A DNA stretch of 48,916 nt from contig QCWH01000004.1 of NCBI GenBank assembly GCA_003149565.1, positions 1 through 48,916 of the forward strand, written 5' to 3'. Below, piece after piece: positions 41,894 through 47,427 of this stretch (position 1 is its first letter; each line of letters begins with the position of its first letter). A program made the translations under genes and the position numbers. This DNA comes from Marivita sp. XM-24bin2. GTDB lineage: Bacteria; Pseudomonadota; Alphaproteobacteria; Rhodobacterales; Rhodobacteraceae. The notes beneath the pieces were generated by a model. The model saw only the letters and a list, made by a program, of their open reading frames with translations, ran no database searches and had not been told where the DNA came from.

Positions 41894-42247
<354 letters not shown>

Positions 42248-44146: not shown

Positions 44147-44284
44147 GTTGCCCTCATTGGTCTCTGTGTTGATGTCTGTCCTGACACTCCCACATGGGCG
44201 TGTGTTCCGTCCTTAAGGCCGGATTAAGCGTTCCAAAGCGATCCGAATTCTGCGGAAATCGCGGGCTTGCACGCTCTGGCAAAT

Positions 44285-44299
44285 GTTCTATTTTTGTTC
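44285..44299 (+). promoter_or_regulatory. LexA SOS box (GTTC-N7-GTTC)
   Basis: GTTC-tattttt-GTTC is an exact match to the alphaproteobacterial LexA operator. It ends 2 bases before ATG 44302 of the DnaE2-type OB gene. Genes of the imuAB-dnaE2 mutagenesis cassette are classic members of the regulon. Confidence 0.85.
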
Positions 44300-44301
44300 C
44301 T

Positions 44302-44709
44302 ATGCGTGTTGCCACCCCCCGCCCCAAACAAACCGACTGGCCCCGCCCACCCTCGTGCCTGCGCGCCGACCAGCTGCGCCTGCCGCCCGACAATGCCCGG
44401 ATCACGGTGGCGGGGCTGGTGATCCTGCGGCAGCGGCCTGGCACTGCAAAAGGCGTGATCTTTCTCACGCTGGAAGACGAGACCGGTACGGTCAACATCA
44501 TCGTCTGGCGCAAGCTTTACGAACGCTATCGCCGCGCGGTGATCGCGGGGCGCATGTTGCGGGTCACCGGGCGGCTGCAAGGCGAAGGAGACGTGATCCA
44601 TGTGATTGCCGAGGTCATCGAAGACATCTCGCCCCTGCTGGACCAGCTTCTTGCGCCCGCACCAGACGACCTGCCAGAGGCGCTTTCGCCAGGAGCACAA
44701 ACAGGCTAG
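44302..44709 (+). CDS. Stand-alone OB-fold domain of error-prone polymerase DnaE2 (ImuC C-terminus)
   Basis: A 135-residue protein matching only the last part of DnaE2/ImuC. The OB-fold reads ITVAGLVILRQRPGTAKGVI, LTLEDETGTVNIIVWRKLYE, AGRMLRVTGRLQGEGDVIHV and an EVIEDIS tail; the PHP, polymerase and beta-binding parts are absent. A perfect SOS box sits just before the ATG, leaving no room for a normal leader, so it may be leaderless. It could be a remnant of an imuA-imuB-dnaE2 operon left after an internal deletion, or a small SOS-induced DNA-binding protein. The frame is intact. Confidence 0.75.
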   Translation: MRVATPRPKQTDWPRPPSCLRADQLRLPPDNARITVAGLVILRQRPGTAKGVIFLTLEDETGTVNIIVWRKLYERYRRAVIAGRMLRVTGRLQGEGDVIHVIAEVIEDISPLLDQLLAPAPDDLPEALSPGAQTG

Positions 44710-44751: not shown

Positions 44752-45303
44752 GTGATCCCCTTCCCGTCAGCGATCCGGGCTCTGTGGGCCGTGGCCTTGG
44801 CCGTCCTGACAGGCTGCGGAGACGCATCCGGATTTCCTGAAGACGGGCTTGAGGCCCCGGTGCCTGATTTCGCATCCGCCCGGATCGACCCACCACCGGG
44901 CGTGCGCCCCGATGGCTGCTGGGTCCGCGACGTCGCTCCGGCCGAGCTGGAAACCGTCACCCGCCAGATCGAGGTCGCCCCTGCGCGCTACAATGCCAAT
45001 GGACAACAGATCAGCCCGGCCCGGTTTCGCACCGAGACCGCACAGGTGATCCTGCGAGAACGGCAGGAACTGATTTTCGAAACCCCCTGCCCCGAGGCGC
45101 TGACCCCCACGCTGATCTCGACACTGCAACGAGCTCTGGAGGCGCGCGGGCTCTATCGCGGGCCGATCACAGGCGAGATGGATGTGCTCACCCGGCGCGC
45201 GGTGCGCCGCTATCAGACAAGCAATGGTCTGCCGAGCGGATTGCTGTCGATTCAATCGGCGCGTGGGCTGGGGCTCTTGGCGACACCGCGCGATCAGCTC
45301 TGA
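44752..45303 (+). CDS. Peptidoglycan-binding domain lipoprotein
   Basis: 183 residues with a GTG start. Lipoprotein signal peptide: a hydrophobic ALWAVALAVL then lipobox LTGC (Cys22). The middle is unrecognised; the C-terminus is a PG_binding_1 domain (LISTLQRALEARGLYRGPIT then EMDVLTRRAVRRYQTSNGLP). It is expected in the outer membrane, binding peptidoglycan. The start lacks a strong ribosome site, but an earlier start would disrupt the signal peptide. Confidence 0.8.
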   Translation: MIPFPSAIRALWAVALAVLTGCGDASGFPEDGLEAPVPDFASARIDPPPGVRPDGCWVRDVAPAELETVTRQIEVAPARYNANGQQISPARFRTETAQVILRERQELIFETPCPEALTPTLISTLQRALEARGLYRGPITGEMDVLTRRAVRRYQTSNGLPSGLLSIQSARGLGLLATPRDQL

Positions 45304-45323: not shown

Positions 45324-45474
45324 GAGTTTGCACCTTAGAGTTTGCAACTTTGCAAAATCGCACTTCATGAAATGCAACTCTGCATAATGGGGCAGAGTTT
45401 GCAAAAGTTTGCAATCCCGACCAGGCAAAACTGCAAAGTTTTTGCGGCCTTCTGCCGCGCGCCGGATTGCAAGA
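45324..45474. promoter_or_regulatory. Array of TTTGCAA-type motifs upstream of prpE (probable ScfR/PccR-type operators)
   Basis: At least six related motifs lie in about 150 bp: GAGTTTGCA (45324-45332), TTTGCAA (45341-45347), TTTGCAA (45349-45355), TTTGCAA (45398-45404), TTTGCAA (45408-45414), and the dyad TGCAAAGTTTTTGC (45432-45445), with weaker ones at 45373-45384 and 45467-45472. TTTGCAAA-like half-sites are the type bound by RamB and by the short-chain acyl-CoA regulator PccR of Rhodobacter. The next gene, prpE, makes propionyl-CoA. The match is by pattern, not by alignment to a proven site. Confidence 0.6.
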
Positions 45475-45534
45475 CTTGCCGCAAGGTCCCGCGCGCCGTA
45501 CGCCAATGCCAACACGTTTCAGGAGGAGATCGGC

Positions 45535-47427
45535 ATGGGCTACCAAGAGGTGTATGAAAGCTGGAAATCCGACCCCGAGGGGTTCTGGATGCAGCAGGCC
45601 GAAGCGATTGATTGGGATCAGAAACCCAGCAAAGCGCTATTTGAGGTCGGCGACAACCTGTACGAATGGTTCTCAGACGGTCAGACCAACACCTGCTGGA
45701 ACGCCGTTGACCGCCATGTCGAAGCTGGCCGCGGCGGACAGGTTGCCATCATACATGACAGCCCGATCACCGGCACGCTGCACAAGATCACCTATGCCGA
45801 GCTTCGCAATCGCGTCGCCCGGCTTGCCGGGGCGCTGCGCGCCAAGGGGATCGAGAAAGGCGACCGCGTCATCATCTACATGCCGATGGTGCCCGAGGCG
45901 CTCGAAGCGATGCTGGCCTGCGCGCGGCTTGGCGCGATCCATTCGGTGGTCTTCGGAGGCTTTGCAGCCAACGAACTTGCCGTCCGCATCGACGATGCCA
46001 AACCGAAAGCGATTGTCGCCGCGTCCTGCGGGCTCGAACCCGGTCGCGTCGTGCATTACAAGCCGCTCCTCGACGGGGCCATCGAACAGGCAAAACACAA
46101 GCCCGACTTCTGCGTGATCTTCCAGCGCGAACAGGAAGTGGCACATCTGGAAGAGGGCCGAGACCATGATTGGCACGGCTTCCAATACGGTGTCGAGCCG
46201 GCCGACTGCGTGCCGGTCGAAGGCAACCACCCCGCCTATATCCTTCACACTTCCGGCACCACGGGCGCGCCCAAGGGTGTGATCCGCCACACAGGCGGTC
46301 ATCTGGTGGCGCTGAACTGGACGATGAAGAACATCTACAATGTCGATCCGGGCGACGTGTTCTGGGCCGCATCGGATGTCGGCTGGGTCGTTGGCCACAG
46401 CTACATTTGCTACGCGCCGCTGATCCACGGCAACACCACGATCGTGTTCGAAGGCAAGCCTGTGGGCACGCCGGATGCAGGCACGTTCTGGCGGGTGATT
46501 TCCGAGCACAATGTGCGCAGCTTCTTCACCGCACCGACCGCGTTCCGCGCGGTGAAGCGGGACGATCCCAAAGGGGAATATGTCGGCAAATACGATATTT
46601 CCTGCTTGAAGGCGATTTACCTCGCGGGTGAACGGGCCGACCCCGACACGATCGAATGGGCGCAGAAAGTCACCGGCAAGCCGATTTATGACCACTGGTG
46701 GCAGACCGAGACCGGCTGGACCATCGCCGGCATGCCAGCGGGGATCGAAGCGCTTCCGGTCAAGATCGGTTCTCCTTCGGTGCCGATGCCAGGCTACGAT
46801 GTGCAGATCCTTGACGAGGCAGGCCACCCCATGAAACCGGGCGAGCTGGGCGCGATTGCGGTCAAGCTGCCCCTGCCCCCGGGAACGCTGCCCACGCTGT
46901 GGAATGCCGAGGACCGGTTCCGCAAATCCTATCTGTCGCATTTCCCCGGCTACTACGAGACCGGCGACGCCGGCATGATCGACGAGGATGGCTATCTCTA
47001 CATCATGGCGCGCACCGATGATGTGATCAATGTCGCGGGCCACCGCCTGTCCACCGGCGGCATGGAAGAGGTGCTGGCCTCGCACCCCGACGTGGCAGAA
47101 TGCGCGGTGATCGGCGTCACGGACGAGTTGAAGGGCCAGTTGCCGATGGGGTTTGTCTGCCTGACCACTGGTGTCAACCGGCCGCATGACGAGATCGTCA
47201 AGGAATGTGTGAAACTGGTCCGTGACAAGATCGGACCAGTGGCAGCTTTCAAGCTGTGTGCCGTGGTGGATCGTCTGCCCAAGACCCGGTCGGGCAAGAT
47301 CCTGCGGGCGACGATGGTCAAGATCGCCGACAGCGAAGAGTTCAAGCTGCCCGCAACCATCGACGACCCGGCCATTCTGGACGAGATCAAAGTGGCGCTG
47401 CAGAGTATGGGCTACGCGAAGGGCTGA
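45535..47427 (+). CDS. prpE: Propionyl-CoA synthetase PrpE (acyl-CoA synthetase family)
   Basis: A 630-residue acyl-CoA ligase that activates propionate (and possibly acetate) with ATP and CoA. Motifs: HTSGTTGAPKGVIRHTGGH (P-loop-like), HWWQTETGWTI, YYETGDAGMIDEDGYLYIM, and the C-terminal LPKTRSGKILRATM with the Lys modified by acylation in this family. AGGAGGAGA lies 6-8 bases before ATG 45535; the longer frame to 45409 overlaps the motif array and is rejected. PrpE is distinguished from Acs by DYxW-type start and overall fit; a substrate mix is possible. Confidence 0.9.
   Translation: MGYQEVYESWKSDPEGFWMQQAEAIDWDQKPSKALFEVGDNLYEWFSDGQTNTCWNAVDRHVEAGRGGQVAIIHDSPITGTLHKITYAELRNRVARLAGALRAKGIEKGDRVIIYMPMVPEALEAMLACARLGAIHSVVFGGFAANELAVRIDDAKPKAIVAASCGLEPGRVVHYKPLLDGAIEQAKHKPDFCVIFQREQEVAHLEEGRDHDWHGFQYGVEPADCVPVEGNHPAYILHTSGTTGAPKGVIRHTGGHLVALNWTMKNIYNVDPGDVFWAASDVGWVVGHSYICYAPLIHGNTTIVFEGKPVGTPDAGTFWRVISEHNVRSFFTAPTAFRAVKRDDPKGEYVGKYDISCLKAIYLAGERADPDTIEWAQKVTGKPIYDHWWQTETGWTIAGMPAGIEALPVKIGSPSVPMPGYDVQILDEAGHPMKPGELGAIAVKLPLPPGTLPTLWNAEDRFRKSYLSHFPGYYETGDAGMIDEDGYLYIMARTDDVINVAGHRLSTGGMEEVLASHPDVAECAVIGVTDELKGQLPMGFVCLTTGVNRPHDEIVKECVKLVRDKIGPVAAFKLCAVVDRLPKTRSGKILRATMVKIADSEEFKLPATIDDPAILDEIKVALQSMGYAKG

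Follow-up and report, generated by a model that had tools for sequence, protein, structure and literature searches.

The error-prone DNA polymerase DnaE2 (ImuC), represented by the profile NF004225 (PRK05672.1), unites PHP, polymerase, HhH and OB domains in a single chain. Sections of Timinskas et al. (PMC3919608) describe several DnaE2 proteins that lack the OB domain, as well as a C-terminal SRDF[H/R] motif that is found in ~77% of DnaE2 and is probably a protein-protein contact; a separate OB gene is not mentioned in those sections. A 2026 survey, PMC12926913, distinguishes in the part considered here 11 complex types and describes DnaE2X systems with a split ImuB (an inactive PolY and a separate ImuB-C); the terms 'OB domain' and 'OB-fold' have 0 occurrences in its main text. 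According to passages of PMC10883770, imuB and dnaE2 co-evolve in one operon in P. inhibens, and passages of PMC9426580 report a plasmid-borne imuA-imuB-dnaE2 cassette (NC_009957.1) in Dinoroseobacter shibae, a species for which LexA sites were predicted in silico in PMC6473078, in excerpts that contain no mention of a free OB gene. More generally, no description of a free OB gene of DnaE2 was found in the consulted portions of the literature on DnaE2, imuA/imuB, LexA and Roseobacter.

Such a gene lies in the window, by which we mean the whole stretch of 48,916 nucleotides analysed here. The system to which it belongs resembles DnaE2 as described, in that the product of the gene and a polymerase body encoded elsewhere in the genome together cover NF004225, in the SOS-type boxes and in the presence of ImuB; it differs in consisting of two genes on two contigs, rather than one chain, and in having no SRDF[H/R] end. 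The body is of the same kind as the OB-less proteins of PMC3919608, and the DnaE2X systems of PMC12926913 offer, as far as the survey was covered, a precedent for a mutasome component in two pieces, with ImuB being divided there and the polymerase here. We propose that the free gene is probably one half of a trans-split DnaE2, namely the OB part of an SOS mutasome.

A free gene for the OB domain of DnaE2

The 135-residue protein matches NF004225 only at the C-terminal end of the model (109 bits, E 1.9e-31; model length 1047) and is predicted to consist solely of the OB domain of DnaE2, encoded in an intact frame, as an earlier sequence-only reading of this DNA had maintained. It also matches the OB-fold family PF01336 with 48.1 bits, above the Pfam cut-off of 27; by contrast, the score against the SSB family PF00436 (14.3 bits) falls under the cut-off of 26, and by profile the protein is not SSB-like. 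A structure model (mean pLDDT 85.8) contains OB-barrel strands, and the OB fold is supported by Foldseek, with telomere CST, RPA, aminoacyl-tRNA synthetases and exonuclease VII among the matches listed; Pol III alpha is absent among the 50 matches listed, and the OB alignment, searched against the sequences of solved structures, gave 0 matches. An alternative in-frame ATG upstream, at 44194, would give 171 residues, and the start at 44302 is preferred because its spacing from the box recurs in relatives. That start lies directly behind the perfect GTTC-N7-GTTC box to which the same reading had drawn attention (Table 1).

Table 1. Features of the free OB gene, its surroundings and the related boxes; positions without a contig name are those of the window.
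Feature	Position	Strand	Remark
Free OB-domain gene, 135 aa	44302..44709	+	ORF; NF004225 942-1041; PF01336
SOS-type (LexA) box GTTCTATTTTTGTTC	44285..44299	+	2 bases 5' of ATG; predicted LexA site
Predicted -35 element TTGCAC	44267..44272	+	CTTGC kept at -19 to -15 from box (102 aligned upstream regions)
Predicted -10 element TATTTT	44289..44294	+	within box; 16 bases after -35; TAT kept
Ferredoxin-like gene	41894..42217	-	left neighbour in relatives; position kept in 59/63 long named loci; context, no working part
Peptidoglycan-binding-domain gene	44752..45303	+	right neighbour; PF01471; position kept in 46/63 long named loci; context, no working part
Exact GTTCNNNTTTTGTTC site, imuB	C1:60567		
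Exact GTTCNNNTTTTGTTC site, ImuA-like gene	C1:293909		
Exact GTTCNNNTTTTGTTC site, dnaE2 body	C18:18020		
Exact GTTCNNNTTTTGTTC site, OB gene			

The polymerase body and its partners are dispersed in the genome

The remainder of DnaE2 is found in the genome of the window (4.43 Mb in 116 contigs, 96% complete) on contig C18, as a body of 994 residues that covers positions 5-938 of NF004225 with 1228 bits, against a curated cut-off of 939. The body has PHP, DNA_pol3_alpha, finger and HhH domains, the OB domain being missing, and its match adjoins that of the free OB protein (938 / 942); in fused relatives the OB domain follows the end of the body without interruption. A search for a full dnaE2 elsewhere in the genome, as had been suggested for this locus, thus ends at a polymerase without its OB domain. 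A third match to the profile, on contig C62, reaches 579.7 bits, under the cut-off, and scores as would be expected for the replicative DnaE. Three acidic residues, D412, D414 and D564, presumably the catalytic ones of the polymerase, do not vary among 30 bodies. A mediocre structure model was obtained for the body (mean pLDDT 70.5), with a low-confidence tail at residues 968-994.

In addition, the genome encodes an ImuB-like protein of 555 residues with IMS and IMS_C domains and a box just upstream of its gene, and a candidate ImuA, also with a box, whose match is weak (27 bits; the curated cut-off is 150) and which has no Pfam match. These two genes lie ~230 kb apart on C1, each behind its own box; with the body on C18 and the OB gene on C4, the four genes are dispersed and form neither a contiguous nor a split gene cassette.

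Free OB genes accompany OB-less bodies

We searched 147 genomes, of which 90 belong to the family of the window (own genome included) and 17 of these to its genus, and scored a body as truncated if its match ended at NF004225 position 938-962. OB-less bodies occur in 45 of the 90 family genomes and in 29 of 74 genera, and free OB orthologues in 46 of the 90, own genome included. The free gene is present in 43 of the 45 genomes with a truncated body and in one of 43 other family genomes (two-by-two table 43, 2, 1, 42; Fisher p 3e-21, a value that ignores common descent), two genomes with a free OB gene, G077 and G084, having been excluded from the table since a contig end interrupts the body in each. 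Another 34 family genomes have fused DnaE2 only, with an intact free OB gene in none of them (0/34), and eight have neither DnaE2 nor a free OB gene. The fused class includes G025, rejected as a split genome because the body reaches the end of contig C2 and the OB begins that contig, and G037, reassigned from an apparent OB gene without a body. Weak OB matches in two genomes with fused DnaE2 only were also set aside, one on C49 of G062 (E 2.1e-4), which the profile did not recover, and one on C14 of G018 (E 8.7e-4), which is a remnant. A clean free OB gene was not seen in the 57 genomes of other families, where the listed matches lie in frames of ~1000 residues or longer; the exception, in G133, is not in a frame of ~1000 residues and has an internal stop.

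ImuB was found in all 38 of the split-body genomes examined for it (seven of the 45 are outside this count). The match continues past a stop in seven of the 45 bodies (G017, G040, G043, G049, G059, G073, G088), and the body of G029 is in two pieces. One of the 43 genomes with both halves, that of D. shibae (G051), additionally has a fused copy, which lies beside a Y-family gene on a 126,304-bp plasmid, the split pair being on a 3.8-Mb contig; the plasmid cassette thus belongs to the same polymerase family and the same species as the chromosomal split pair and is unlike it in its fused DnaE2, its neighbouring Y-family gene and its conjugative plasmid.

The free gene also keeps its place. In each of 63 long named loci (from a set of 80, of which 17 were omitted as too short) at least one of its two flanking genes is in position, namely both in 42, the ferredoxin-like gene alone in 17 and the peptidoglycan-binding-domain gene alone in four; the former lies to the left on the opposite strand, where in Marivita-type genomes extra genes can intervene, and the latter to the right on the same strand. 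In three fused-only genomes (G042, G055, G062) the two flanking genes lie close together and nothing between them matches OB above noise, and the same holds for three genomes with neither form of DnaE2 (G019, G069, G085). The proposal that the locus is a collapsed imuAB-dnaE2 cassette is contradicted by both sets of observations, the shared position of the free gene in 63/63 loci and the empty site in genomes with a fused polymerase. The remnant in G018, a genome with two fused DnaE2, sits between the same flanking genes (C14, near 14933), comprises residues 78-135 only and has no box. ImuB, for its part, matches in the fetched flank of 38 of 39 fused DnaE2 loci and of one of 45 split bodies (G047, where it is divergent), the flanks fetched for the latter being shorter; in the window's genome the split body does not lie directly behind imuB. 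As a separate observation, positions 45341-45415 of the window contain four TTTGCAA repeats ahead of an ORF that resembles acyl-CoA synthetases (45409-47427). Two of the four are part of the longer TTTGCAAA, which occurs nowhere else in the window, and the repeats may be sites of a short-chain acyl-CoA regulator.

The sequence-only reading had also considered an SOS-induced ssDNA-binding accessory that acts without a polymerase domain. The SOS-type box and the DnaE2-type OB domain agree with that idea, and an OB-less body with its own box on another contig does not; an OB gene without any DnaE2 body occurs in one genome only, G067 (7 contigs), where an intact free OB gene (C4 2083558-2083899) with a box 33 bases 5' of its ATG accompanies ImuB. 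Conversely, G060 and G080 have a split body and ImuB, and a free OB gene was not found in them, profile search included. The ends of the proteins have changed as well: SRDFH or a near variant terminates fused DnaE2 in 30 of 30 loci inspected, and SRDF[H/R] occurs in none of the split-body tails inspected and in none of 108 free OB tails; 40 of the 45 split bodies stop soon after an LTP behind the last helix, and a C-terminal motif common to all free OB proteins was looked for and not found. Since the motif is gone from both halves, their contacts have changed. Taken together, G067, G060 and G080 and the lost motif would fit an OB domain that has left the polymerase for good and become a small SOS-induced ssDNA-binding protein for ImuB, DinB or general gap repair, with the body working OB-free. 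We regard this as unlikely, given the co-occurrence in 43/45 genomes, the profile scores against SSB and the decay of the OB gene in G018, which shows that a free OB gene can decay where there is no split body, as a subunit that depends on its partner should (G067 being the counter-example). Furthermore, OB identity tracks body identity alike in split (42 genomes) and fused (38) pairs; at a body identity of 0.70-0.75, OB identity is 0.706 in split and 0.689 in fused pairs, and this equality argues that detachment has not relaxed the OB domain, which changes at a rate tied to that of the body as it does within fused proteins.

Four genes share an exact SOS-type box

The bare GTTCN7GTTC 15-mer is at chance level, with one occurrence in the window against 1.45 expected and 127 in the whole genome against 160 for a backward-read control, and for this reason significance from the 15-mer alone was rejected. 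What raises the box above chance is its recurrence before orthologues, together with a tighter exact pattern, GTTCNNNTTTTGTTC, which has exactly four places in the 4.43-Mb genome, 5' of the imuA-like gene, imuB, the dnaE2 body and the OB gene (Table 1); the chance expectation is ~0.3 by our own arithmetic from the backward control. Allowing up to one mismatch gives 15 places, and 12 for the control read backwards, so that the exact class alone stands out; the lexA gene of the genome has a looser box.

Looking for the same short gene with a box in relatives, as had likewise been suggested, was rewarded: among 108 distinct free OB genes, drawn from 125 loci, 102 are preceded by the exact box, and 90 have their ATG 1-5 bases downstream of it. 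As the ATG follows immediately on the box in different genera, the OB transcript would be leaderless, beginning near the A of the start codon, and LexA bound there would overlie the -10 element of the promoter. Body boxes are more variable (exact in 26 of 45, with one mismatch in 18 and absent in one), and the body mostly starts ~10-30 bases past the box. This difference between promoters is what could be expected if the OB protein were a limiting, regulatory subunit and its separate leaderless SOS promoter governed the timing or strength of mutasome activity; as the same kind of box is found on both halves, we consider a role in dosage distinctly improbable.

Truncated bodies form one clade and the OB gene is under purifying selection

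In a quick tree of 84 bodies, a single branch separates all 45 truncated ones from the others (SH-aLRT 100; none of 500 shuffles came as low), for which one fission is the simplest history. The short tree of OB domains (45 free and 39 fused, G049 left out) needs two changes and does not reject a single clade (p-AU 0.325). The body of G049 itself has a long branch, was matched past stops and has no box, and ImuB lies ~950 bases upstream of it on the same strand; it is either an early branch or a decaying copy.

Across 136 pairs of 17 congeners, dN/dS has a median of 0.153 and a maximum of 0.475 for the OB gene, the latter in a close pair (G001-G011), and a median of 0.122 and a maximum of 0.175 for the body; in one congener (G013) the OB stop lies three residues ahead of the usual end. 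The free OB gene is thus under purifying selection, and the dN/dS comparison bears out the initial view that the intact frame is not one in simple decay. The remnant in G018 and the two split genomes without an OB gene show that the gene can be lost; that it is a functionless leftover of an old dnaE2 rearrangement is nonetheless scarcely credible in view of the median dN/dS, of 26 columns invariant in 59 sequences from many genera and of the conserved box and spacing.

Discussion

The split of DnaE2, the co-occurrence of its halves, their boxes, the purifying selection and the synteny are well supported by computation, and the trans-split reading would connect them as follows. In one clade, the OB part would have come to be elsewhere on the chromosome, under an SOS-type promoter not shared with the body, and the PHP-polymerase-HhH body would have stayed behind as another gene of SOS type. 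DNA damage leads, through RecA, to the inactivation of LexA; if LexA binds the four dispersed promoters, the body, the OB protein, ImuB and probably ImuA would then be produced together. The OB protein may dock non-covalently at the site of the fused OB domain, where it would keep the single-stranded template close to the active site and thereby complete the error-prone mutasome.

Several observations count against this model, namely the body and ImuB without an OB gene in G060 and G080, the OB gene and ImuB without a body in G067, the two changes in the OB tree, the missing SRDF[H/R] in both halves, the dN/dS of the G001-G011 pair and the weak assignment of ImuA. More tentatively, and with less than even likelihood by some way, the system could be a four-subunit mutasome of ImuA, ImuB, OB-less DnaE2 and free OB, in which the OB protein holds ssDNA and can be exchanged; its level, set by a separate leaderless SOS promoter, would gate mutagenesis, and it could work with ImuB even where there is no body, as in G067.

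If the gene is indeed the OB half of a trans-split DnaE2, it provides a natural separation of domains, in which the contribution of the OB domain to translesion synthesis would be testable through the loss of one small non-catalytic gene. It also advises caution, as a DnaE2 scored as OB-less may have its OB domain in trans, and a small OB-fold gene that follows an SOS box may code for a subunit of a polymerase. In many marine Roseobacter-type bacteria, the damage-induced DnaE2 seems to consist of two proteins whose genes lie far apart.
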